From Acidobacteriota bacterium (lineage in GTDB: Bacteria > Acidobacteriota > Terriglobia > Acidiferrales > UBA7541), in NCBI GenBank assembly GCA_003224055.1, contig QHYE01000013.1, positions 1-64,000 on the forward strand: a stretch of DNA of 64,000 bases, read 5' to 3'. Below the pieces are notes generated by a model. It was not told the DNA's origin and did not search any database. It worked only from the letters and a program-made list of their open reading frames with translations. Both the position numbers and the translations under genes were made by a program. Numbering within the stretch: position 1 is the first letter of the stretch; the number at the start of each line of letters is the position of its first letter. Below, piece by piece: positions 465 to 12,281 of the stretch.

Positions 465-3400
465 CTATTGCGGCGCCACGGGGTACTTCGGCCGCTGCGG
501 AATGGGCTTGTAGTTCTTCAGCGCTTCCTTCGCCAACTCAATCGCCTTTTCGAGCTGCGGGTCATGGCCCCTGACGACGAGATCAGGCCGCTGCGGTACG
601 ACATAATCAGGATCGACGCCGTGCTGTTCGACGACCCACTCGCCGCCATTGTCCGTGCTCCAGAAACCAAACCCCGGTGCGGTAACAAAGCCGCCATCCC
701 GTAGCGGCTGAGAGTTGCCAATGCCGATCAATCCGCCCCAGGTGCGCGTGCCGACGATCGGTCCGATTTTCTCGCGCCGGAAAAACCACGGGAACGCGTC
801 GCCGCCGGAGCCTGCGAGCTCATTCACGATCATGATCTTCGGTCCATAAATCGCCACCGGAGGCCAGGGAACGTCCTTGGTGTCGCGGGGAGCTACCAAG
901 GCGAGAAGCTGGCGCTTGAGTTTTTCCGTATAAAAATCCGGAATCTGACCGCCCCGATTGTAGCGCTCGTCGATGATGATGCCGTCCTTGTCGAGCTGCG
1001 CGTTGAGCGCTTTGTCGAACTGGATGATTCCCTCGATCGAAGTATCCGGCACGTACATGTAGCCGATGCGCCCGCCGGTGGCTTCTTCGACTTTCTTGCA
1101 ATTCGCCGCAAACCAGTCGATATAGCGCGCGCCGGATTCATTGGCCACGGGCTTGACCACGATCTCCCACGCGCCGTCCGCCGAAGGCTTGCTGTTGATT
1201 TTCAGCGTCACGAGCTTGCCGGCGAGGTTCTGGAAGTAGTAGTAGACCTCTTGCGCCGATTTTGCTTCCTGTCCGTTTACGGCGATCAGATAGTCGCCGG
1301 ATTTTACCTTGATCCCCGGCTCGGTGAGCGGCGAGCGCGTCGCTTCGACCCAGTTCTCTCCCGGGTAAATTTTCGCGAAGCGATAGTAGCCGCCATCGGC
1401 TTCGAAATCGGCGCCCAGCATGCCGACGCTGATGCGCGCTTTCTTGGGGCTGTCGCCGCCGCCGACATAAGTGTGCGAAGTGCTCAGCTCGGCGATCAAC
1501 TCGCCGATGAGGTAGGTCAAATCGCTCCGGTGAGCGACCCAGGGAAGAAGCGCCTCGTAACGCGCACCAATCTTTTTCCAATCGTGGCCGGTCATCGCCG
1601 GATCCCAGTAAAAATCCCGCTCGATGCGCCAGGCCTCGCGGAAAGTCTGCTTCCATTCCTCGCGCGGATCGATTCTCACCTGCAGGCCGGAAAGATCGAG
1701 CTTGCCTTCCCCGACTTTTTTGCCGGGAGCGGCGTCGACCACGCCGAGCACCGCCCCGGCCTTGTAGAGGACCTTCTTGCCCTCTTTATCGAGAAAGTAG
1801 CCCTCAATACCTGAAAGAACTTCTTTGTCTTCGCGTTTCTCGAGGTCGTAAACGTGCAGCACGACCTTGGGCGCTCCGTCCTGCTCCGGACTGAACGACC
1901 GCGATTCTTGCGGCTGCGCAACGTAGAAGAGCTTGCCCTTCCGCGCGTCCAGGCTGCCGTAAATTCCCGAAGGGATCGGCAGGGGCGCCACGCGCGTCGC
2001 AATGCCGTTCAAATCGACCTGCACGGGCTTGGGAGGCTCTTCCTTCTTCTCCTCTTTCTTGGCTTCTTCTTTCTTCTGCTCGTCTTTCGACTTGGCATCA
2101 GCTTTCTTGTCGTCGCTCTTCTTGTCTTTTTCGTCTTTCTTATCCTTATCTTTATCTTTGTCGGCTTTTTCTTCGTCGCTTTCCGGCTTGAAGGGAGAAG
2201 CCTCGTCGGCTTTCAACGTCAATGCGAAGATGCCGTCGGTGCTGTAGTAGTTGAAGCGCTGGTCGAGCTGGCCAATGCTGGGGAAGAAGTAGCGCTGCGA
2301 GAAGAAGAAAAGATACTTGCCTTCGCGGTCGAAGACGGGATTCGTGTCGTTGTAAAAACCATCAGAGACCTTGGTCGTCTTTTTCTGATCGAGAGAATAG
2401 AGGAACAGTTGGCCGGCGCCGCGGCGGTCGGCTTTCGAGTAAGCGATCCACTGGCTGTCCGGTGCCCAACTGCCATCGGTGATGTCTCCGTAATCGCCTT
2501 GATCGACCTGGACGGGCCTTTTTTCTTCCGTTGAGATCCACCAGAGCCGGTGCATTTTGTCCCAATAAAGTAGTTTCTTGCTGTCGGGCGACCAGGTCGG
2601 CCCGTAGCGGTACATGCTGCCGTCCGTTGTGACGCGGATATCGTCGCCACCCATCTGCGGGCGCAAATAAACTTCGTATTCACCGATCTTGTCCGAGAGG
2701 TAAGCGATCCACTTGCCGTCCGGCGACCAGGCCGGATTCAGTTCGTGAACGCTGGAATTGTCCGTCGTGAGCGTGCGTACACTGCCGTGCTCCGCCGGTA
2801 CGGTGAAAATGTTGCCTCGAGCCTCTACAACGACGCGTGCTGCGGAAGGAGAAATTCCGTAACCGCCGATATTTTCGGCAACGCTTTTGAATTCCGGCCG
2901 CGCTTCGATATCTTCGGCGTGGACCTGGATGGGGATGTTGCTCGCTTTGCCGCTTGCCAGGTTGTATTCGTAAAGTACGCCGCCGTTTTCGTACACGATC
3001 GCGTCGGGACCGAGGCTGGGCCACTTGATGTCGTACTCTTTGTAATCCGTCAGCTTTTTCGTTTGCTTCGAGCCCAGGTCGTAGCTGTAGAGGTTCATCA
3101 CGCCGTCGCGGTCGCTGATGAAATAGACCGCGTTGCCGTGCCACATGGGGAAAAGATCCATGCCCTCTGTTTTCGGCAGCTCTTCATACGAATTGTTCTT
3201 CAAGTCGAAGATGGCGATGGGCAGGCTCCAGCCGCCGCGGTAGCGCTTCCAGGTGCGAAACTCCTGTGAGGTTTCGAGGTACGCGATCTTATTGCCGTCT
3301 GGCGAGAAACTCGTGAGGTCCGCGCGCGGCACTTGCAGCATTTTCGGCGTGCCGCCTTGCGGAGAAACTAGAAAGAGCTTGGTGTAGCGGCCCGGAGGCG

Positions 3401-3848
3401 CGCTGAAGCGGTCCGAGCGGAAGAGGATATTTTTGCCGTCGGGCGTCCAGCCAAGCACGATGTCATTCGACGGATGAAAGGTCAGACGCTTCGGCTCGCC
3501 GCCTTCGGCGGACATGACGTATACGTCCGGGTTGCCGTCGTACTCGCCCGTGAAGGCAATCCATTTTCCGTCCGGAGAGAATTTGGGAAAAACTTCGTCG
3601 CCCACATGGGAGGTCAGCCGTCGTGCCGCGCCGCCTTCGCGCGAGGAGATCCACAGGTCGCCCGCGTAGGCAAAGACCACCCTGTCCTTCGAGATATCGG
3701 CGAACCGCAGGAGCCGGGTGGGCCCTTCAGGCGCGCTGTCGGTCGCTGCGACTTTCGCCGGGGCTTTCGTTGGTATGGCCGCGAGGCAGGCCACGGCTGC
3801 CAGACTGAGCCACAACAAGACATTCAACCGCATGGGTATGGGCTTCAT
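465..3848 (-). CDS. Secreted tricorn-like S41 peptidase with beta-propeller
   Basis: A 1,127-residue exported protease of the tricorn/S41 (C-terminal processing peptidase) superfamily, predicted to degrade peptides in the periplasm. The start at 3848 is supported by AGGAG about 10 bases upstream and by a signal peptide (about residues 1-31); a longer frame to 4076 adds 76 residues without such support. Residues about 45-540 carry repeated SPDGKWIAF/SPDSKKLLY-type blades (WD40-like propeller). Residues about 553-607 are an extreme Lys/Asp/Glu linker. Then follow a tricorn core-like region, a PDZ domain (about 790-870) and the S41 domain with ELAGSGGDAF, placing the nucleophile at Ser1014. It is divergent from the sensor kinase at 4164. 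The function is confident, the substrate unknown. Confidence 0.93.
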   Translation of the reverse strand: MKPIPMRLNVLLWLSLAAVACLAAIPTKAPAKVAATDSAPEGPTRLLRFADISKDRVVFAYAGDLWISSREGGAARRLTSHVGDEVFPKFSPDGKWIAFTGEYDGNPDVYVMSAEGGEPKRLTFHPSNDIVLGWTPDGKNILFRSDRFSAPPGRYTKLFLVSPQGGTPKMLQVPRADLTSFSPDGNKIAYLETSQEFRTWKRYRGGWSLPIAIFDLKNNSYEELPKTEGMDLFPMWHGNAVYFISDRDGVMNLYSYDLGSKQTKKLTDYKEYDIKWPSLGPDAIVYENGGVLYEYNLASGKASNIPIQVHAEDIEARPEFKSVAENIGGYGISPSAARVVVEARGNIFTVPAEHGSVRTLTTDNSSVHELNPAWSPDGKWIAYLSDKIGEYEVYLRPQMGGDDIRVTTDGSMYRYGPTWSPDSKKLLYWDKMHRLWWISTEEKRPVQVDQGDYGDITDGSWAPDSQWIAYSKADRRGAGQLFLYSLDQKKTTKVSDGFYNDTNPVFDREGKYLFFFSQRYFFPSIGQLDQRFNYYSTDGIFALTLKADEASPFKPESDEEKADKDKDKDKKDEKDKKSDDKKADAKSKDEQKKEEAKKEEKKEEPPKPVQVDLNGIATRVAPLPIPSGIYGSLDARKGKLFYVAQPQESRSFSPEQDGAPKVVLHVYDLEKREDKEVLSGIEGYFLDKEGKKVLYKAGAVLGVVDAAPGKKVGEGKLDLSGLQVRIDPREEWKQTFREAWRIERDFYWDPAMTGHDWKKIGARYEALLPWVAHRSDLTYLIGELIAELSTSHTYVGGGDSPKKARISVGMLGADFEADGGYYRFAKIYPGENWVEATRSPLTEPGIKVKSGDYLIAVNGQEAKSAQEVYYYFQNLAGKLVTLKINSKPSADGAWEIVVKPVANESGARYIDWFAANCKKVEEATGGRIGYMYVPDTSIEGIIQFDKALNAQLDKDGIIIDERYNRGGQIPDFYTEKLKRQLLALVAPRDTKDVPWPPVAIYGPKIMIVNELAGSGGDAFPWFFRREKIGPIVGTRTWGGLIGIGNSQPLRDGGFVTAPGFGFWSTDNGGEWVVEQHGVDPDYVVPQRPDLVVRGHDPQLEKAIELAKEALKNYKPIPQRPKYPVAPQ

Positions 3849-4163: not shown

Positions 4164-6026
4164 ATGAGCTTCCGAGCAAAATTATTGCTGATCGTCCTGC
4201 TCACCATTTTTGCCTCCGTCACCGTCGTGGCGTATGGCGTGACTCACTACACCCAGGCTGCGTTCGAAGAGATGGACGCCGAACGCACCGAAGCGCTGGT
4301 GGCGCAATTCAACAAGGAGTTTGTGCAGCGCGGCGAGGAAATCGCCCGCCAGGTAGAGAACATCACCAATGCCGAAGTGACGCTCCGCATGGCCATAGAC
4401 CTGCAACGCTCGAACGCCGACCAATCTCTCTACGTTCGTGATGCCAACGGCGCCGCGCAGGATCACGGACTGGATTTTGTCGAATTCGTGAATACCGATG
4501 GAACGTTGATTTCTTCGGCGCAATACTCTGCGCGCGTCGGCTACAAGAATGACTGGCTCCCTTCGGCGACCAACTGGAACGAGTCCACTGCGTTCCTGAG
4601 GCGCGAAGAGTTGCCGACCGATGTGGCGCTTTCTCTCTCTGTCGTTCGAACGCAGCCCAATGTCCCCAAACCCTTTTACATCATCGGCGGGCGGCGGCTG
4701 GACAAGAAATTTCTGGAATCGCTCGTCTTGCCCGCCGGAATGCGCGCGCTCATCTACAGCAATCTCGAACCATCCTTTGTGCCTGGAGCGCTTATCGTGG
4801 CGAAAGGCGAAGTCGAACAGCCGGAGCGATTTGCTCCCTTGATAGAACAAATTCAGAAGCAGGCTCACCCGCTCGTTCGCACGTTCGAATGGACCAGGGA
4901 CCCCGCGGATGCGGAAACATTTCACGCCATCCCGCTCGCAGGCCGGAACAATGAGTTGCTTGGCGTTTTTCTAGTTGGCAGCTCGCGCAAAGAGCTCGTC
5001 CTGCTGACGGACAAAATTGTGAAGATTGCTGCCGCCGTCGGTGCGGGCGCTTTATTCATCGGACTGCTGATCGCGCTCTGGATTTCCGCGCGAATCACCA
5101 GGCCGGTCGAGGAACTTGCCGCGGCCGCGCGCGAAGTTGCCGGCGGAAGATGGAATACGCGCATCGACGTGCACGGACGTGATGAAATCGGCCAGCTTGC
5201 CGCAGCTTTCAATGAAATGACGCAGACGCTGGCGGCGCAGAAAGAAAGCTTGGTGCAAACCGAGCGCGTTGCCGCCTGGCGCGAACTGGCGCGACGGCTC
5301 GCGCATGAGCTGCGCAATCCGCTTTTCCCGATGCAGATCACCATCGAAAATCTGCAAAAGGCGAGGAAATTGGACGCGAAACAATTTCTGGAAGTCTTTC
5401 ACGAGTCCACGGCCACGCTGAAAGCGGAGCTTGCCAATCTCAATACCATTGTTAGCCGCTTCAGCGATTTCTCGAAGATGCCCGCGCCGCAATTTGTTCG
5501 CGTGAACGTGAATGAAGCTATTCGAAACGCCGTACGCCTGTTCGAACCGCAATTCAACGAAGTGGGCAAACCGACCATCACGCCGGAATTGTTTCTGACC
5601 GATCCTCTGCCCGAAATCGATGCAGATCCGGACCTCCTCCACCGTGCCTTTCAAAATCTGGTCTTGAATTCACTCGACGCCATGCCCGCCGGCGGAACGC
5701 TTACACTCAAAACCTCTGAGCACGAGGGTTGCGTTCGAATCGACGTGGCCGACACGGGTAAGGGCTTGACGCCTGAAGAATGTTCGCGCCTGTTCACGCC
5801 GTATTACACGACGAGACTTCAAGGCACAGGGCTGGGACTCGCCATCGTGCAGTCGGTGGTCAGCGATCATCACGGCAGCATTTCCGTCACGAGCCATGAA
5901 GGCCGCGGCACCGCGTTTCGAATCGAATTGCCGCAGCGCCAGGCTGGCGTCACAACGGCGCCGCGCGAACCGGCTCGCGAACCAAAGAGTAGTGCGCCCT
6001 CGACTATGGCCGCGGCTTCGGATTAG
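4164..6026 (+). CDS. HAMP sensor histidine kinase (NtrY-like)
   Basis: A 620-residue membrane sensor kinase. Transmembrane segments lie at about 7-29 and 285-307, enclosing a roughly 255-residue extracytoplasmic sensor region with no family I recognise. HAMP follows (about 305-360), then HisKA with LAHELRNPLF (phospho-accepting His381), then HATPase_c with an N box NLVLNSLDAM, DTGKGL and GTGLGLAIV. Start ATG has GGAG 8 bases upstream. The HELRNPL form and the sigma-54 regulator 21 bases downstream fit the NtrY/AtoS group, so the pair probably controls sigma-54 promoters. The signal cannot be told from sequence. Confidence 0.92.
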   Translation: MSFRAKLLLIVLLTIFASVTVVAYGVTHYTQAAFEEMDAERTEALVAQFNKEFVQRGEEIARQVENITNAEVTLRMAIDLQRSNADQSLYVRDANGAAQDHGLDFVEFVNTDGTLISSAQYSARVGYKNDWLPSATNWNESTAFLRREELPTDVALSLSVVRTQPNVPKPFYIIGGRRLDKKFLESLVLPAGMRALIYSNLEPSFVPGALIVAKGEVEQPERFAPLIEQIQKQAHPLVRTFEWTRDPADAETFHAIPLAGRNNELLGVFLVGSSRKELVLLTDKIVKIAAAVGAGALFIGLLIALWISARITRPVEELAAAAREVAGGRWNTRIDVHGRDEIGQLAAAFNEMTQTLAAQKESLVQTERVAAWRELARRLAHELRNPLFPMQITIENLQKARKLDAKQFLEVFHESTATLKAELANLNTIVSRFSDFSKMPAPQFVRVNVNEAIRNAVRLFEPQFNEVGKPTITPELFLTDPLPEIDADPDLLHRAFQNLVLNSLDAMPAGGTLTLKTSEHEGCVRIDVADTGKGLTPEECSRLFTPYYTTRLQGTGLGLAIVQSVVSDHHGSISVTSHEGRGTAFRIELPQRQAGVTTAPREPAREPKSSAPSTMAAASD

Positions 6027-6047
6027 CCCTTCGCAAAGGAACCACGC

Positions 6048-7439
6048 TTGCCGCGCAAAGCTCACCTCCTTCTTGTCGACGACGATCCGAACACGCTGGC
6101 TTCGCTTGCGCGCGCCTTCCGCCTCGCGGGACATGAAGCAACGGTCTGCGACAACGCGGCTCGCGCCGTTGAACTCATTCGAACGGAATCCTTTGACCTG
6201 ATTCTTTCCGATGTTGTGATGCCCGGCCGCAACGGGCTGGAGTTGCTGGAGGATTTGAAAAAGGCCGGCGTGAAAGCTCCGATCGTACTGATTTCAGGCC
6301 AGGCCAATATTGAAATGGCGGTGAAGGCCACCAAACTCGGCGCGCTGGATTTTCTGGAAAAACCGCTCTCGACAGACAAATTACTCGTCACCGTTGAAAA
6401 TGCTTTGCACCTCTCGCGGCTTGAAGAAGAAAACCGCGAGTTGCGTCACCGGTTGGGAAAGCATGAACTTGTGGGCTCCGGCCGAGCGATAAAAAAACTC
6501 ATCGCGCAAATTGAACGCGTAGCGGCGAGTGAAACGCGCGTTTGCATTCTTGGCGAGACCGGCACCGGCAAGGAACTCGTTGCGCGCGCCATCCATGAGA
6601 AATCGCCGCGCCACGAGCATCCATTCATCACGCTGAATTGCGCGGCTGTTCCCGCGGAATTGATCGAATCGGAACTCTTTGGCCACGAAAAGGGAGCGTT
6701 CACCGGCGCGGCCGTCAAGCGCGTAGGCAAATTCGAACAAGCTGAAGGCGGCACGCTGTTTCTCGATGAAATCGGCGACATGCCCGTGGCGATGCAGGCA
6801 AAGTTGCTCCGCGTATTGGAAGAAGGCGAAGTCGAGCGCGTCGGCGGTGACAAGCCCATCAAGGTGAACGTTCGCGTCGTTGTGGCAACTCATCGCAACT
6901 TAGAAGACTTGGTGAAACAAAATGCTTTTCGCCGCGATCTTTTTCACCGCGTTTATGTTTTTCCGCTGACGCTGCCGCCTCTGCGTGAACGCTCGGAGGA
7001 TTTTCCGGAATTGACATCGCATTTCGCGCGGCAGGTGGCCGCGCAGAACGGCTGGAAAGAAAATCTTTTTGCCGAAGATGCCATCGCCGAATTGCGAAAA
7101 TACGGCTGGCCGGGAAATGTGCGCGAATTGCGCAACGTTGTCGAGCGCCTCATTCTGCTTGCCGCGAACGAAAACATAACTGCTGCTGATGTTCGTTTGA
7201 TTCTTCCGACTTCGGATTCGGCGTCGAGCGGATCCGCGAGCTCCGCCGCCGGCGCAGCAACCGGCACGCTGGCGGAGCGTACCGAAGCGTTCGAACGGGA
7301 AGCGATGCTCGCGGAAATACGGCGCCACAATTTTCATATGACGAATGTGGCGCGGGCGCTGGGTTTAGAACGTAGCCACTTATATAAAAAGTGCCAGCAG
7401 TTGAGAATCGATCTGCAGTCACTGCGCAAACCGGATTAG
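6048..7439 (+). CDS. Sigma-54-dependent response regulator (NtrC family)
   Basis: A 463-residue regulator: receiver domain (about 5-117, phospho-acceptor Asp55 in ILSDVVMPG), AAA+ sigma-54 activation domain with Walker A GETGTGKE, the RNA-polymerase-contact loop GAFTGA (near residue 217) and Walker B GTLFLDEIGD, then a Fis-type helix-turn-helix at the C-terminus (NVARALGLERSHLYKK). The start is TTG, chosen because AAAGGA lies 8 bases upstream and no ATG is near. It is the partner of the kinase upstream (21-base gap). An intact GAFTGA loop indicates a true sigma-54 activator. Confidence 0.94.
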   Translation: MPRKAHLLLVDDDPNTLASLARAFRLAGHEATVCDNAARAVELIRTESFDLILSDVVMPGRNGLELLEDLKKAGVKAPIVLISGQANIEMAVKATKLGALDFLEKPLSTDKLLVTVENALHLSRLEEENRELRHRLGKHELVGSGRAIKKLIAQIERVAASETRVCILGETGTGKELVARAIHEKSPRHEHPFITLNCAAVPAELIESELFGHEKGAFTGAAVKRVGKFEQAEGGTLFLDEIGDMPVAMQAKLLRVLEEGEVERVGGDKPIKVNVRVVVATHRNLEDLVKQNAFRRDLFHRVYVFPLTLPPLRERSEDFPELTSHFARQVAAQNGWKENLFAEDAIAELRKYGWPGNVRELRNVVERLILLAANENITAADVRLILPTSDSASSGSASSAAGAATGTLAERTEAFEREAMLAEIRRHNFHMTNVARALGLERSHLYKKCQQLRIDLQSLRKPD

Positions 7440-7447
7440 GTTTGCGA

Positions 7448-7463
7448 CGCAAACTAGTTTGCG
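7448..7463. repeat. 16-bp perfect palindrome after the NtrC-type gene
   Basis: CGCAAACTAGTTTGCG, a perfect 8+8 palindrome 8 bases after the regulator stop; a second short palindrome CTCCGCGGAG follows at 7474-7483. There is no following T-run, so it is a poor intrinsic terminator. It may be a protein-binding site or a transcript end. Confidence 0.4.
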
Positions 7464-7556
7464 GCTCTCCCGTCTCCGCGGAGGGCTCCCCAAAAGTCAG
7501 CTAACCTACTTAATTTGTTTGAGTTACAGAAAACAAGGAGGCTTGTCCGATTTCGC

Positions 7557-7585
7557 TTGACAAATCGCGGATTGCAATATATGAT
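7557..7585 (+). promoter_or_regulatory. Near-consensus sigma-70 promoter of the XRE gene
   Basis: TTGACA at 7557-7562, a 17-base spacer, and TATGAT at 7580-7585: a perfect -35 and a -10 with one mismatch (TATAAT) at ideal spacing. Transcription would start near 7592, 23 bases before the ATG at 7615. The surrounding 40 bases are AT-rich in an otherwise GC-rich region. Confidence 0.8.
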
Positions 7586-7599
7586 TAGCATATTGCAAT
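7571..7599. promoter_or_regulatory. Operator-like inverted repeat over the -10 element
   Basis: Perfect 10-bp arms ATTGCAATAT (7571-7580) and ATATTGCAAT (7590-7599) around a 9-base spacer that contains most of the -10 hexamer and the likely start point. Binding of a dimeric repressor here would block RNA polymerase. The adjacent XRE gene makes autorepression the simplest reading (inference). Confidence 0.7.
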
Positions 7600-7614
7600 A
7601 TTCGAGAGGCGGCC

Positions 7615-8142
7615 ATGAAACTAGGCGACAAACTTCGCTCCCTCCGCGCCGTGGAAGGCTCGCTCCGGGGTCTGGGCCGTACGATGACCCAGCAGGAGCT
7701 GGCCGCCGCGATGAAGCGGGAGATTGGCCGTGGCTTGAGCCAGGCGTATCTCTCGCAGATCGAGAGCGGCGCGCGCCCGCACCTGACGCATACGACGCGG
7801 GAGCTACTGGCCCGGTTCTTCCGGGTGTATCCGGGGTTCCTGGTGGACGATCCGGAGGGATATACGCCGGAGTTGCAATCAGAATTGAGGGCGATCGACG
7901 CGAAGATCGATTCGTGGCTCTATGCAGGCGCCGAGCAATTCACGGCGGATCCGGAGCTGCAACGCGCACTGCTGGCCGTTGCCGAGGTGGAGGATTCACG
8001 CAAGGCCGTGCTGCTGCTGGCGGAGATTCTCCGCACACCAGGCCTGGCTGACCAGCTTGGAGAAGTTTTGAGTTCTGGGCAACAGCGCAGCGAGGGCCAA
8101 GAAGGGAACGGGCTTCCGCCGCCGGCGCCGCTGCAAAACTGA
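7615..8142 (+). CDS. XRE-family transcriptional regulator
   Basis: A 175-residue protein with an N-terminal Cro/CI-type helix-turn-helix (about residues 20-70: MTQQELAAAM, then LSQAYLSQIESGARP as the recognition helix), followed by a predicted helical region (about 90-150) with no recognised domain and a polar, disordered tail. Start ATG is preceded by AGAGGCGG. It stands under a strong promoter whose -10 is embedded in a perfect dyad, so it probably represses itself. The three membrane-associated genes that follow in the same direction (OB-fold protein, flotillin, PspA) are plausible further targets. Confidence 0.88.
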   Translation: MKLGDKLRSLRAVEGSLRGLGRTMTQQELAAAMKREIGRGLSQAYLSQIESGARPHLTHTTRELLARFFRVYPGFLVDDPEGYTPELQSELRAIDAKIDSWLYAGAEQFTADPELQRALLAVAEVEDSRKAVLLLAEILRTPGLADQLGEVLSSGQQRSEGQEGNGLPPPAPLQN

Positions 8143-8200
8143 GTTGTAGGGTCTGCGTCTCGAATTCCAGCTCGCGCACGGGGTGCGCTCGAGGTGTCCT

Positions 8201-8806
8201 ATGACCTGGACTGATTTTTATCTTCTCTGTTTCATCGTGGGCTTCACGCTCAGCGTGCTGTCTTTCCTTGGCGGTGCGGCTCACGTCCATCTGCCATTCA
8301 AATGGCACCTGCCGTTTCATGGGTGGCACCACGCCAGCGGGCTGGCCGGCCGTGGCATGTCCGGTCACGGAATGCCCCATGTTCGGGGCGGCCTCTCATG
8401 GTTCAACGCCATGACGATCATGACGTTTCTGGCCTGGTTTGGCGGAATTGGCTACATCCTCTCCACGCATTCACGACTGGTCGCGATTGCCGCATTGCTC
8501 ATCGCGGCTTCTGCCGGAATCTTTGCCGCAGGAGTGGTTTTCAAATTCATGGCAAAGATTGTGAAGGTGAGCGACGCCCACATGTTGGATTGGGATTACC
8601 GCATCGAGGGGACCGTCGGCACGGTCAGCTCGCCGATCCGCGAGAACGGCACGGGAGAAATGATTTTTGAGCAAAAGGGAGTGCGCAAAAGCGTCGGGGC
8701 GAGGAGCGAAGATGGCAACCCGCTTCCCAACGGCACGGAAGTGGCGATCACGCGCTACGAGAATGGAATCGCCTACCTGAAGAAATGGGAAGACTTCACG
8801 AAGTAG
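8201..8806 (+). CDS. Membrane protein with C-terminal NfeD/YqiJ-like OB fold
   Basis: A 201-residue inner-membrane protein. Hydrophobic segments at about 5-23, 68-86 and 92-116; a His/Gly-rich loop at about 30-62 (HVHLPFKWHLPFHGWHH); a C-terminal soluble domain from about 126 (RIEGTVGTVSSPI... GTEVAITRYENGIAYLKK) that resembles the OB fold of YqiJ/NfeD proteins. Start at 8201 has GAGGTG 5 bases upstream, preferred over an ATG 18 bases earlier. YqiJ/NfeD proteins are normally encoded beside a flotillin, as here. The His-rich loop might bind metal (inference). Confidence 0.82.
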   Translation: MTWTDFYLLCFIVGFTLSVLSFLGGAAHVHLPFKWHLPFHGWHHASGLAGRGMSGHGMPHVRGGLSWFNAMTIMTFLAWFGGIGYILSTHSRLVAIAALLIAASAGIFAAGVVFKFMAKIVKVSDAHMLDWDYRIEGTVGTVSSPIRENGTGEMIFEQKGVRKSVGARSEDGNPLPNGTEVAITRYENGIAYLKKWEDFTK

Positions 8807-8878
8807 CGGGCGGTAAAAGTTTCCCGGACTGATGAACGACGCAAACAGTCCGGAGCAGAGTGGAAAAGGGAGGTCTTT

Positions 8879-10312
8879 ATGTTCGGTCTGTCTGTGCCCG
8901 TGATTGCCGGGCTGCTGGTACTCGCAATTCTCTTTGCGATGGCAGGATTTGCCACGCTTTTGCGAAAAGTCGGGCCGCACGAAGCGCTCATCGTATACGG
9001 AATACGCGGTCCAAGAACGGTAACCAATGGCGGCACGATTCTCATTCCAATGCTGGAGCAGTGCCGCGAGCTCTCGCTGGAGCTGATGTCATTCGACGTG
9101 GCTCCACAGCAGAGCCTGTACAGTAACCAGGGCGTCGCCGTCACGGTCGAAGCGGTGGCGCAACTTAAAGTGAAGTCCGACCCCGTGTCCATTCGAACGG
9201 CGGCGGAGCAATTCCTCACCAAGCGGCCGGAGCAGCGCGAAGGCTTGATCCGGCTGGTCATGGAAGGGCACCTGCGCGGCATCATCGGCCAGCTCACGGT
9301 GGAACAGATCGTGAAGGAGCCGGAAATGGTGGGCGACCGCATGCGTTCCACGTGCGCGGCGGACATGAACAAGATGGGGCTCGACGTGGTGAGCTTCACA
9401 CTGAAGGAAGTGCGCGACAAGAACGAGTACATCACCAACATGGGCCGGCCGGACATCGCGCGAATCAAGCGCGACGCGGAAGTAGCCGCAGCCGAAGCGG
9501 ACCGCGACATCGCCATCAAGCGGGCTGAGTCCCAGCGTGCCGCGGCCGTGGCGAAGGCGCAAGCCGACCAGGAGCGGGTGGCCGCCGAAACGGCTTCGCT
9601 GGCCAAGCAAGCCGAGGCCGAGCGCGACCTGGACATCAAGAAAGCCAGTTATCTGGAGATGACCAAGAAGGCGCAGGCCACCGCGGACAAGGCCTATGAA
9701 ATCGAAACCAACGTCATGCAACAGAGAGTGGTGGAGGAGGCGGTACGCGTCCAGCAAGTCGAGCGCGAGGCGCAAGTGAAGGTACAGGAAGCGGAAATCG
9801 AGCGCCGCGAACGCGAACTCATCGCCACGGTGCTCAAGCAGGCGGAAATCGAGCGGCAGCGCATCGAAACGATCGCCAGCGCCGAACGTCAGCGCCTGAT
9901 GAGCGAAGCGGAAGGCCGCGCCTCTGCCATTCGCGCGCAAGGTGAAGCCGAAGCGGAGATCATCTTCAAGAAAGGCGAAGCGGAAGCCAAGGCCATGAAC
10001 GTCAAGGCGGAAGCCTTCCAGGAATACAACCAGGCCGCCGTCCTCGACAAACTCATCAGCGGACTGCCGGAAGTGGTGCGCGCCCTCAGCGAGCCGCTCG
10101 GCAAAGTGGACAAAGTGACCATCGTTTCCACCGGCAACGGCGATGCGGCCGGCGCTTACAAGCTGACCGGGGACATCACCAAGATTGCCGCGCAAGTTCC
10201 AGCGCTGTTTGAAGCGCTCTCGGGAATGCAAATGTCGGACTTGCTCAGCAAAGTGCGCCTGATCGGCGACAAAGCGCCAAAGCCGGAGCAGCCGGCTGCC
10301 AGCAAGTCATAA
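8879..10312 (+). CDS. Flotillin / YqiK-like SPFH protein
   Basis: A 477-residue flotillin. N-terminal membrane segment (about 5-26), SPFH/band-7 domain (about 28-200), then a long Glu/Ala/Arg-rich coiled coil (about 195-375, with repeated AEAE, KGEAEAK), and a C-terminal oligomerisation-like part. Bacterial flotillins scaffold membrane microdomains and affect protein secretion, fluidity and signalling. GGGAGG lies 7 bases before the ATG. The gene follows its usual OB-fold partner and precedes a small membrane protein and PspA; in Bacillus, FloT and PspA are functionally connected, which fits the order here. Confidence 0.93.
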   Translation: MFGLSVPVIAGLLVLAILFAMAGFATLLRKVGPHEALIVYGIRGPRTVTNGGTILIPMLEQCRELSLELMSFDVAPQQSLYSNQGVAVTVEAVAQLKVKSDPVSIRTAAEQFLTKRPEQREGLIRLVMEGHLRGIIGQLTVEQIVKEPEMVGDRMRSTCAADMNKMGLDVVSFTLKEVRDKNEYITNMGRPDIARIKRDAEVAAAEADRDIAIKRAESQRAAAVAKAQADQERVAAETASLAKQAEAERDLDIKKASYLEMTKKAQATADKAYEIETNVMQQRVVEEAVRVQQVEREAQVKVQEAEIERRERELIATVLKQAEIERQRIETIASAERQRLMSEAEGRASAIRAQGEAEAEIIFKKGEAEAKAMNVKAEAFQEYNQAAVLDKLISGLPEVVRALSEPLGKVDKVTIVSTGNGDAAGAYKLTGDITKIAAQVPALFEALSGMQMSDLLSKVRLIGDKAPKPEQPAASKS

Positions 10313-10325
10313 CGATCGCTTCCGC

Positions 10326-10353
10326 CCCGGTGGGTCATAGCTGGCCCACCGGG
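10326..10353 (+). terminator. Stem-loop between flotillin and the small membrane gene
   Basis: Perfect 9-bp arms CCCGGTGGG and CCCACCGGG around a 10-base loop, 14 bases after the flotillin stop. No T-run follows, so it may attenuate, stabilise the upstream mRNA 3' end, or terminate inefficiently. Confidence 0.5.
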
Positions 10354-10379
10354 ACGCCTGATGGTTTGGGGGGATGGCA

Positions 10380-10565
10380 ATGACCAGGAAAGAAAAACTT
10401 CTCGTTGCTTGGATTCTCGTGGTGGTGGCGATCGGATTCCTGTTTCACAACTTCTTGAGCTGGACGGTCTACGCGTTTCAAAAGGTGGTTGCGTTCAGCT
10501 TGATTCCGCTGCCGGGGCTGGTGAAATTTGCGGTGGGTGTTTGCTGCGTGAATCTTTTGCTGTGA
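10380..10565 (+). CDS. Small membrane protein of the flotillin-PspA locus
   Basis: A 61-residue peptide (63 if the ATG at 10374 is used). A run of six G ends directly before the first ATG and is 6 bases before the second, so the second start (MTRKEKLLVAW) is preferred. A basic N-terminus is followed by one hydrophobic helix (about 8-24), an amphipathic middle and a second hydrophobic stretch ending in VCCVNLLL. I do not recognise the family. Being in line with flotillin and PspA, it may be a membrane anchor or partner of one of them (inference). Confidence 0.6.
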   Translation: MTRKEKLLVAWILVVVAIGFLFHNFLSWTVYAFQKVVAFSLIPLPGLVKFAVGVCCVNLLL

Positions 10566-10852
10566 GCCAGAAGAGCGGCCCATTCGCCTGGAGAGGCAAG
10601 AAAGGCAAGAAAGGCAAGAAAGGCAAGGAGCGCAGCCAGGTTGGCTGTGCCACAGGGAAGAAGAAACGCACTGGTCTGAAGACCGGCCACTACAGGGAGG
10701 GGAGCCGGCAGGGAAGCCCTTCGCGCCTCAGGACAAGCCGGCGCTACGGGGAGAAGAGCGGCCCGCCTCAGAAGGCGGCCCCTACGGGGACGTGTGGGCA
10801 AGCGCAGTTTGCTTTCGAGGTTTCGAGTGGTTCGCAGTATTTGGTTTTTGAA
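10566..10852 (+). repeat. Spacer with 9-bp tandem repeat before pspA
   Basis: About 290 bases without a convincing gene. It opens with four tandem 9-bp units of AGGCAAGAA (10594-10629, the last unit AGGCAAGGA), then has three loosely repeated pieces related to GGCGCTACGGGGA (near 10688, 10739 and 10779) of the kind seen as dispersed intergenic repeats in acidobacteria. A long frame reads through the region into pspA but its composition is not protein-like. Confidence 0.5.
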
Positions 10853-10864
10853 AGGAGATTCATC

Positions 10865-11533
10865 ATGGGACTTTTGGAACGAGTAACCACGTTGATTCGC
10901 GCGAATCTGAACGACATGGTGGACCGCGCGGAAGATCCGGAAAAAATGATCAAGCAGGTGATCCTGGACATGGAGAATCAGTACCTGCAGGTGAAGACGC
11001 AGGTGGCCGTTTCCATCGCCGACCAGCACATGCTGGAGAAGAAATGGCGGGAGAACGAGGACTCCGGCAAGGACTGGATGCGCAAAGCGGAAATTGCCGT
11101 GGACAAAAGCGAGGACGACCTGGCGCGCGCGGCGCTGGACCGTTTTCAGACCTCGCAGAGGCTGGCGCTGAGTTACCGCGAACAGGTGGACGACCAGAAG
11201 GCTCAGGTGGAAACGCTGAAGGGAGCGCTTGTGAAGCTCGAACAGAAACTGGACGAAGCGAAGGCCAAGCACGACCTACTGCTTGCCCGGCACCGCCGGA
11301 GCATTGCCCTTAGCAAAGCGGCGCGCGCGCAGACGGCCATCGGTGACAATTCAAACACCGCCACGTTCGACCGTCTGAAAGACCGCGTGCATCACACCGA
11401 GGCGGTTGCCAGCGCGGAAGTCGAACTCCTCACGGACGATACCGTGGAACGTCTCACACGATTGGACCGCGACGTCGAGGTCGATCGGCTACTCGCAGAC
11501 TTGAAGACGCGGCGTGGGCTGCCGCCAGCGTGA
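10865..11533 (+). CDS. pspA: PspA/IM30 (phage shock protein A) family
   Basis: A 222-residue PspA/IM30 protein, predicted almost wholly helical coiled coil. The N-terminus MGLLERVTTLIRANLNDMVD is the family's amphipathic membrane-binding helix, followed by EDPEKMIKQVILDMENQY, a family hallmark. Start 10865 has AAGGAG 7 bases upstream. PspA forms ESCRT-III-like assemblies that bind damaged inner membrane and limit proton leakage. No PspF/PspB/PspC genes are adjacent; the nearby flotillin and the XRE regulator suggest different control from the enterobacterial psp system. Confidence 0.93.
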   Translation: MGLLERVTTLIRANLNDMVDRAEDPEKMIKQVILDMENQYLQVKTQVAVSIADQHMLEKKWRENEDSGKDWMRKAEIAVDKSEDDLARAALDRFQTSQRLALSYREQVDDQKAQVETLKGALVKLEQKLDEAKAKHDLLLARHRRSIALSKAARAQTAIGDNSNTATFDRLKDRVHHTEAVASAEVELLTDDTVERLTRLDRDVEVDRLLADLKTRRGLPPA

Positions 11534-11546
11534 TCCTGGCCGCCGT

Positions 11547-12200
11547 TCAAAGGTGCCGCGTCACAGGTGTCATCATGAACTGCAATACCAGAAAGCAGAA
11601 GTTTATCCCGGCGGAAATCCCAAAGGCCTGCAGCCGGCCGATCCCGTCGACTTCTTCGAAAACCATCATTAACACGGCGGTCCAGGCGATCGCAGCAGCC
11701 AGCGTTCCTGCAACCGGAATTAGAATCAGGCAGTTTACGAACCAACCGAGAAGCAAGGGGCGCATCACCCCCATATAGCTCCCACTGCCGCCAAAAAACC
11801 ATTTTGCCATGAGGTGGCACAAGCCGAGCTGGATGAATGTGAGAAGGGCCATTAAAGCGAGGCCAAAGCTCATTCCTATCACGACTGTAATAACCATCGC
11901 CGGGCCGGAGAGCCGGGAGACGCGACTAGCGGCCAACGTTCGTGAAAGAGCAGTTGCAATCAGAACAATCGTTGCGGCGGCGATCCAAAAGAAGGCGGCA
12001 TAATAGATCGCGTTGGAATCACGAGAAGCCCGGCGGATGGCAATGTGGTCCCAGCGCGCGATGTTGAACGCGAGGCCCAAATAATAGCCTGGCGAAAAAC
12101 CAGTAGGCGGGGGAGCCGCTTCTTCGGCTGTCATGAGCGGCGCGATCCCCGAACAATTGTGTGACAAGCCGTAGTCCATTCCACACACATTGCACTTCAT
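11547..12200 (-). CDS. Yip1-like integral membrane protein with N-terminal CxxC
   Basis: A 217-residue protein starting MKCNVCGMDYG, with a short Cys-containing N-terminal tag (CNVCG) and about five hydrophobic segments between residues 60 and 217, arranged like the Yip1/YIF1 domain (GYYLGLAFNIARWDH... MVFEEVDGIGRLQAF). Start 12200 is backed by AGAGGTG upstream; a longer frame begins 39 bases earlier. It is convergent with pspA (stop codons 13 bases apart). Function unknown. Confidence 0.78.
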   Translation of the reverse strand: MKCNVCGMDYGLSHNCSGIAPLMTAEEAAPPPTGFSPGYYLGLAFNIARWDHIAIRRASRDSNAIYYAAFFWIAAATIVLIATALSRTLAASRVSRLSGPAMVITVVIGMSFGLALMALLTFIQLGLCHLMAKWFFGGSGSYMGVMRPLLLGWFVNCLILIPVAGTLAAAIAWTAVLMMVFEEVDGIGRLQAFGISAGINFCFLVLQFMMTPVTRHL

Positions 12201-12281
12201 AGCGGCACCTCTGAGTACAAATCCGCCAAACTCTAGCACAGATTAAGTAGGCGATAAGCAAACCCACGTTCCGGATAGGCG

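Follow-up and report, generated by a model that had tools for sequence, protein, structure and literature searches.

In the phylum Acidobacteriota, PspA proteins were reported to occur together with Band 7/FloT proteins (11 of 19 PspAs), NfeD and helix-turn-helix (HTH) regulators, and these HTH proteins were proposed as possible regulators of the operon (main-text sections of Popp et al. 2022, PMC9239133). The same PspA, Band 7/FloT, NfeD and HTH content is found in the module of five genes considered here, which is located on contig QHYE01000013.1 of Acidobacteriota bacterium GCA_003224055.1; the whole stretch analysed, 64,000 nucleotides (nt) long, is referred to as the window. The published neighbourhood is a domain-level consensus, and no regulator family, operator, borders, small peptide or RNA hairpin were found in the main-text sections of that paper.

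According to the main text of Ravi et al. 2024 (PMC11237479), PspA, a Band-7/flotillin protein and a YqiJ/YuaF membrane protein may be encoded in one operon. Unlike the module, this group additionally has a CesT/Tir chaperone and an AAA+ ATPase, and shorter flotillin-YqiJ/YuaF operons without PspA are also described; the terms XRE, Acidobacter and NfeD do not occur anywhere in this main text. The ClgR-PspA-PspM-PspN operon of Actinobacteria, covered in the same text, resembles the module in having a Cro-type HTH regulator together with PspA but, as described there, contains neither flotillin nor NfeD. In Bacillus subtilis, the formation of PspA foci requires YdjI, an SPFH protein, together with its partners in the membrane, and a terminator lies inside the pspA-ydjGHI operon (passages of Scholz et al. 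2021, PMC8581546). This operon is like the module in that PspA is accompanied by a protein of the SPFH type and by membrane partners, and differs from it in gene order, in the partners and in being controlled, as described, by sigma-W rather than by an XRE repressor.

The classical Psp system (pspF-pspABC) and the module have PspA/IM30 in common, whereas PspB, PspC and a dedicated PspF are not part of the latter; a Pfam search of the five module products revealed no PspB or PspC domains up to E 0.1, as a preliminary description of this DNA had supposed. A yuaF-floT operon is known in B. subtilis, and among solved structures YuaF of this bacterium comes closest to the NfeD-like protein of the module. 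With regulators of the EspR/SinR type, the XRE protein shares an HTH and a helical C-terminal domain, and its operator here is a single local site. No report of the regulator and its operator, of the cassette borders, of a covarying hairpin or of a changeable peptide slot was found in the literature searched, mostly at the level of titles and abstracts, with subscription papers, preprints and supplements outside it. The preliminary description regarded the gene set as new, which has to be given up in view of the Acidobacteriota grouping in the sections of PMC9239133 and the PspA/flotillin/YqiJ-YuaF operons in the text of PMC11237479. Thus, as far as these sources go, the gene combination is known in outline, and the switch itself looks unreported.

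All five open reading frames (ORFs) of the module are on the + strand, in the order and with the sizes noted earlier, and domain, profile and fold searches bear out these assignments. The genes and their control sites are as follows.

7557..7585, + strand: promoter of sigma-70 type, TTGACA-17-TATGAT, matching 11 of 12 consensus positions, its -35 element conserved in 25 aligned loci
7571..7599, + strand: operator predicted from sequence, an inverted repeat ATTGCAATAT-9-ATATTGCAAT overlapping the -10 element
7615..8142, + strand: XRE-family regulator, 175 amino acids (aa), HTH and helical C-terminal domain (EspR/SinR-like fold), predicted autorepressor
8201..8806, + strand: NfeD/YuaF (YqiJ)-like membrane protein with a C-terminal oligonucleotide/oligosaccharide-binding (OB) fold, 201 aa from ATG 8201
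8879..10312, + strand: flotillin (Band_7 and Flot), 477 aa
10380..10565, + strand: small membrane peptide, 61 aa (63 aa from the first ATG, 10374), quickly evolving
10865..11533, + strand: protein of the PspA/IM30 family (bacterial ESCRT-III), 222 aa

In our opinion, this locus may best be regarded as an XRE-autorepressed, Psp-like flotillin-PspA operon for membrane maintenance, a reading to which we give a probability of roughly 0.68.

The preliminary description had placed an operator over the first promoter, and a near-consensus promoter overlapped by an inverted repeat was indeed found there. It is the only promoter-like site in 7000-12000, where 1.3 such sites are expected in shuffles; this one, however, is conserved across loci. 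In 25 aligned upstream regions (L047, L051, L053, L056, L060 and L061 being left out of the alignment), a TTGACA-like -35 element is followed by conserved half-sites of the TTGCAA type around -10, and the DNA further upstream of the operator is much less conserved. At least two half-sites (ATTGCAAT, with one mismatch at most, within 80 nt upstream) precede 35 of 53 XRE genes versus 0.04 expected in shuffles. Such pairs are absent from the controls, namely from the next 80 nt (0/53) and from the regions before the NfeD-like (0/55), flotillin (0/40) and PspA (0/52) genes, and single half-sites numbered 5, 0, 0 and 1 there, respectively. Only loci with a match starting in the first five residues were counted (53, 55, 40 and 52 of up to 56), and L051, L053, L056 and L060 were taken in. 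Half-sites of this operator type are thus also present before XRE genes in other parts of the phylum. The own genome, which is about 96% complete, contains one exact site and one site with 3 mismatches when the 27-nt operator pattern is allowed up to 3 mismatches. A single exact operator site in the own genome and half-site pairs only at XRE genes are the signature of a local, dedicated regulator, and the location of the operator over a strong promoter argues for repression; that XRE is the repressor is suggested by the position and conservation of this site. Co-transcription of the module genes is likewise suggested by their spacing and by the lack of other promoter-like sites.

The predicted model of the regulator (mean predicted local distance difference test, pLDDT, 78; predicted template modelling score, pTM, 0.50) consists of an HTH and a helical C-terminal domain. 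EspR heads both the profile search (E 2.6e-7) and the Foldseek search (E 3.0e-4; probability 1.00, template modelling score 0.42 by query length), with DdrO and SinR lower; the profile match to EspR spans only positions 24-92 of XRE. The model thus shows an N-terminal HTH followed by a helical, putatively dimerising C-terminal domain, as in EspR/SinR-like XRE folds. The match to Pfam HTH_3 (E 2.4e-4, 21.5 bits) is slightly under the 23-bit cut-off. Across 16 sequences, many residues of the C-terminal part do not vary at all, which is what one would expect if this part serves oligomerisation or contacts a protein. The profile search of the Protein Data Bank at E <= 1 returned EspR and did not return ClgR, a protein probably represented in that database.

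Of the other large products, PspA and the flotillin are firmly borne out by domain searches. PspA matches PF04012 (PspA_IM30) at E 3.3e-38, is the sole PspA_IM30 match in the own genome, and its profile finds Vipp1/PspA structures as the best matches (E 3.5e-48). The flotillin has Pfam matches to Band_7 (2.2e-27) and Flot (1.2e-8), and against NCBIfam FloT it reaches 320.8 bits, under the 700-bit cut-off. The NfeD-like protein, for which a longer GTG start at 8183 is also possible in the ORF list, matches Pfam NfeD as a single sequence under the cut-off (E 0.039), and 7 of 16 members show a weak match. The best solved match of the 16-member profile is B. subtilis YuaF 2k14 (E 6.5e-5), and the same structure was found by Foldseek (E 3.6e-6) with a predicted model of mean pLDDT 71, good only outside residues 26-65. 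The OB fold proposed in the preliminary description is therefore supported by both profile and predicted fold, and the module has both parts of a flotillin-NfeD pair, i.e. an SPFH protein with Band_7 and Flot and an adjoining membrane protein with an NfeD-type OB fold.

The four large proteins (XRE, NfeD-like, flotillin and PspA) were searched for in 61 genomes, the own one included. The block is present in 30 of them, and 31 are without close homologues of all four large genes; counted by protein, XRE was found in 29 genomes, the NfeD-like protein in 30, flotillin (above 240 bits) in 30 and PspA (above 240 bits) in 29. The single absences are at contig ends, that of XRE in G022, whose contig starts 113 nt before the NfeD-like match, and that of PspA in G001, whose contig ends inside the flotillin gene. 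The contig of G002 contains no more of XRE than its end, and G053 has partial matches to both the NfeD-like protein and flotillin. Remote PspA proteins occur in G048, G051 and G056, a second, weaker PspA in G003, and other SPFH proteins in many of the 61 genomes, e.g. a flotillin piece in G036. Within the genus, 26 of 36 genomes (own included) carry the block. The order XRE-NfeD-flotillin-PspA on one strand is kept in 28 of 30 longer loci, the other two being cut by contig ends; most of these loci are on contigs already met in the 61-genome search. Broken frames were noticed for flotillin in L039, for the NfeD-like protein and flotillin in L056 and for XRE in L060.

A histidine kinase and an NtrC-type response regulator (4164-7439), a pair common in the genus, adjoin the module and are independent of it. 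With its first 301 residues, the kinase has matches of E 1e-50 or better in 35 genomes out of 61, among them nine of the ten genus genomes that lack the module, and the NtrC-type regulator stands behind it in all ten stretches compared (these nine genomes and G036). In the empty site of L148 the regulator ends at 3342 and a homologue of window positions 11547-12239 starts at 3453; in L145 this homologue lies within 40 nt of the regulator, and in L151 a polysaccharide deacetylase gene is directly behind it. The downstream genes are also kept in L146, L147, L150, L152 and L153, where other sequence takes up 1 to 4 kb before them, and in L149 and L154 they were not seen in the stretch up to the contig end. 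Since the neighbours are side by side in three module-less genus genomes, the cassette has sharp borders at gene level, and the kinase/NtrC-type pair is outside it. The unit extends from the end of that regulator to the end of pspA, i.e. positions 7615-11533 plus the promoter. The preliminary description had noted the absence of PspF, and this stands, as the NtrC-type neighbour belongs to the backbone and is found beside kinase genes in genomes without the module.

Across the phylum, 396 acidobacterial genomes were searched with a 16-row XRE profile, scored on at most 8 candidates per genome, and 27 of them have the regulator at E <= 1e-15. The 338 genomes of good quality include 26 of these, and 15 of 211 genera are represented. 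Two of the 27 were already known (own and G058), and 25 loci were newly fetched. In 24 of the 25, tblastn showed the NfeD-like and flotillin genes next to XRE, and in 23 PspA as well. Together with the 30 of 61 genomes, this clearly contradicts a neighbourhood confined to one genome, the outcome by which the preliminary description was to be refuted. PspA was found in 106 of 396 genomes, apparently in the same sample. In the class of the window, XRE and PspA (at E <= 1e-10) occur in one and the same set of 22 genomes; this rule is broken in the 61-genome set by G048, G051 and G056, where the remote PspA occurs without this XRE. The locus L139 was considered as a full member and set aside: a membrane protein and a large protein, flotillin-looking by eye, follow its XRE gene, and neither has a Pfam match. 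A record titled Betaproteobacteria (L040) carries an acidobacterial module with XRE 79% identical and is probably a mislabelled metagenome-assembled genome.

Three possible RNA elements were considered in the intergenic stretches.

10323..10356, + strand: hairpin just 3' of the flotillin stop codon, covarying, without a U-tract
8824..8853, + strand: leader hairpin CGGACTG...CAGTCCG before the flotillin gene, conserved in sequence, without covariation
8168..8196, + strand: possible hairpin over the Shine-Dalgarno sequence of the NfeD-like gene, weakly supported

The first 60 nt 3' of the flotillin stop have a median folding z of -3.47 versus shuffles, and z < -2 was obtained in 37 of 50 loci (L039, L046, L047, L056 and L060 not counted), compared with 4/56, 6/55 and 8/52 loci behind the XRE, NfeD-like and PspA genes. 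In 22 aligned loci (without L039, L045, L046, L051 and L056-L060), 9 of 11 pairs of this stem are changed on both sides and 95% are paired; none of 500 shuffles was as high in covariation, and slid controls gave 24-54% paired. The hairpin belongs with the flotillin gene, because it is kept in the peptide-less loci L050 and L061. An intrinsic terminator was considered for it and rejected, as at least 5 T in the next 8 nt were found in just 1 of 51 loci (L039, L046, L056 and L060 omitted).

The leader hairpin, aligned in 25 rows without L046, L051 and L056-L059, is 98.3% paired, no better than shuffles, and no pair is changed on both sides, so conservation is demonstrated for its sequence but not for a structure. 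Its model gave 1428 first-look candidates in the own genome, and among the 150 of them that were scored the hairpin itself was the sole match. For the hairpin over the Shine-Dalgarno sequence, two alternative pairings were counted in 21 rows (without L044, L045, L049, L051, L053 and L056-L060), and neither was clearly above both controls. The conserved intergenic sequence CTCGAATTCCAGCTCGCG...CGAGGTG (8150-8197) has two segments, each of which could pair with this Shine-Dalgarno sequence. A search for known RNA families in 7400-11700 gave one match (E 0.15, 17.9 bits versus a gathering score of 38), taken as chance. In L057 and L058, an ORF of 24 hydrophobic residues with a possible ribosome-binding site, alike by eye in the two loci, is located between the XRE and NfeD-like genes.

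The small ORF begins most plausibly at ATG 10380, which is better spaced from GGGGGG (10368-10373) and gives the 61 residues named in the preliminary description. It has no Pfam match up to E 0.1. Its median pN/pS (ratio of nonsynonymous to synonymous changes) is 0.52 in frame versus 0.90 and 1.15 in the other two frames (36 pairs from 9 genus loci), and by this comparison the ORF evolves as coding, under purifying selection. The most hydrophobic stretch of 19 residues starts at residue 7 or 9 in 8 of 9 loci (at 36 in L032). By tblastn the peptide was found in 13 of 30 longer loci, and its place as a module member is upheld in that part of the lineages. Elsewhere the slot contains other short hydrophobic ORFs (L120, L121, L123, L129 and L130; L135 and L136, by eye) or hardly exists, the flotillin-pspA gap being 9-77 nt in 13 of 23 phylum loci that have both genes. 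In L051, this slot is filled by an ORF of 143 aa with a hydrophobic N-terminal part and no Pfam family above noise. A dispersed repeat occupies 10566-10830 between the peptide and pspA genes, and its pieces occur at 21 further places of the own genome.

A number of observations weigh against the proposed operon or narrow it. Ten of the 36 genus genomes are without any of the block, some of these assemblies being incomplete (63-99%), and such a module or regulator was not seen in 369 of the 396 genomes of the phylum; most of the 106 PspA-bearing genomes have PspA outside the module. PspA is not obligatory even in the module, because it is missing behind flotillin in L138 and was not found behind the XRE locus in L139. 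Fewer than two half-sites at the chosen stringency were found in 18 of 53 XRE upstream regions (none in L124 and L139), and the post-flotillin hairpin at z < -2 is absent from 13 of 50 loci. Many loci lack the small peptide or have one of a different type. Finally, co-transcription of pspA is not certain, since it is 299 nt from the peptide gene with the dispersed repeat between.

Under the proposed reading, a dimer or higher oligomer of XRE would sit on the tandem TTGCAA-type half-sites over -10 in the unstressed cell and keep the operon low. Membrane damage would free the promoter from the repressor, and the NfeD/YuaF-like protein, flotillin, small peptide and PspA would be produced jointly. 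NfeD and flotillin may form a membrane-bound platform, PspA an ESCRT-III-like polymer that coats and mends the membrane, and the small peptide may serve as a replaceable membrane accessory. A switch responding to membrane state, as supposed in the preliminary description, is a reasonable assumption; as its likeliest signal, PspA (or the NfeD/flotillin platform) would be drawn off the repressor. One may speculate, purely by analogy with PspA-PspF, about titration, yet acting via a repressor. The post-flotillin hairpin probably stabilises or separates the upstream messenger and would thereby set the flotillin:PspA ratio.

It might be supposed that the kinase and the NtrC-type sigma-54 regulator (4164-7439) drive the operon as a two-component version of PspF control. 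They are directly upstream on the same strand, the AAA+ part of the regulator scores 296 bits on the PspF model (under the 443.55 cut-off), and all long loci known to be of the genus that have an upstream flank show the pair before the module, or the regulator as far as the contig reaches. However, both are also found in module-less genus genomes (L145-L153), neither was seen before the module in L050, L051, L056, L057 and L058, nor in the 1 kb before L059, and no sigma-54-type promoter was found in 7440-7615, with matches in the window at chance level (34 versus 31.7 expected). By the empty sites and these chance-level matches such control was rejected, and we consider it very improbable. The same empty sites, with the sharp gene-level borders and the patchy presence across families, would suit a cassette that is mobile or spreads horizontally and serves mainly another purpose, e.g. 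phage defence, its membrane genes only resembling stress genes. Its constant site behind the kinase/regulator pair in genus loci with a flank fits loss from an ancestral locus, and a moving cassette appears improbable to us. Chance neighbours with independent functions could be imagined, as every gene family is common by itself, but all-or-none presence in 61 genomes and the conserved order across the phylum contradict this, and it may be practically dismissed.

A more serious possibility, although an unlikely one, is that XRE acts as an activator or represses itself alone while the other genes are transcribed constitutively. ClgR acts as an activator, and the gaps of 58-299 nt leave space for unseen promoters. 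A Cro-type HTH regulator with PspA does exist in ClgR, which is named a repressor in the text of PMC11237479. On the other side, the promoter is near-consensus with its -10 covered by the operator, the 7000-12000 region has this one promoter-like site, and half-site pairs are absent before the other genes.

Summarizing these data, it may be concluded that the preliminary description is partly supported: the module is real, conserved and sensibly interpreted, and less new than was thought. A fuller reading, in which XRE, as an autorepressor, senses the state of the membrane by way of PspA or of the NfeD-flotillin platform, the operator is kept wherever the regulator occurs, the hairpin fixes the flotillin:PspA ratio and the peptide slot is refilled with unrelated membrane peptides in different lineages, can be offered only tentatively and is rather doubtful as a whole. 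If true, it would represent one more way in which the Psp response can be wired. Both flotillins and PspA guard the membrane, with a mutual connection that is still unclear, and the cassette unites them under their own regulator. As one cassette, present or absent as a unit, with its own regulator and a recognisable DNA site, it makes the flotillin-PspA link testable in culturable acidobacteria, and the operator may help to recognise the switch in the many members of this soil phylum that are uncultured.

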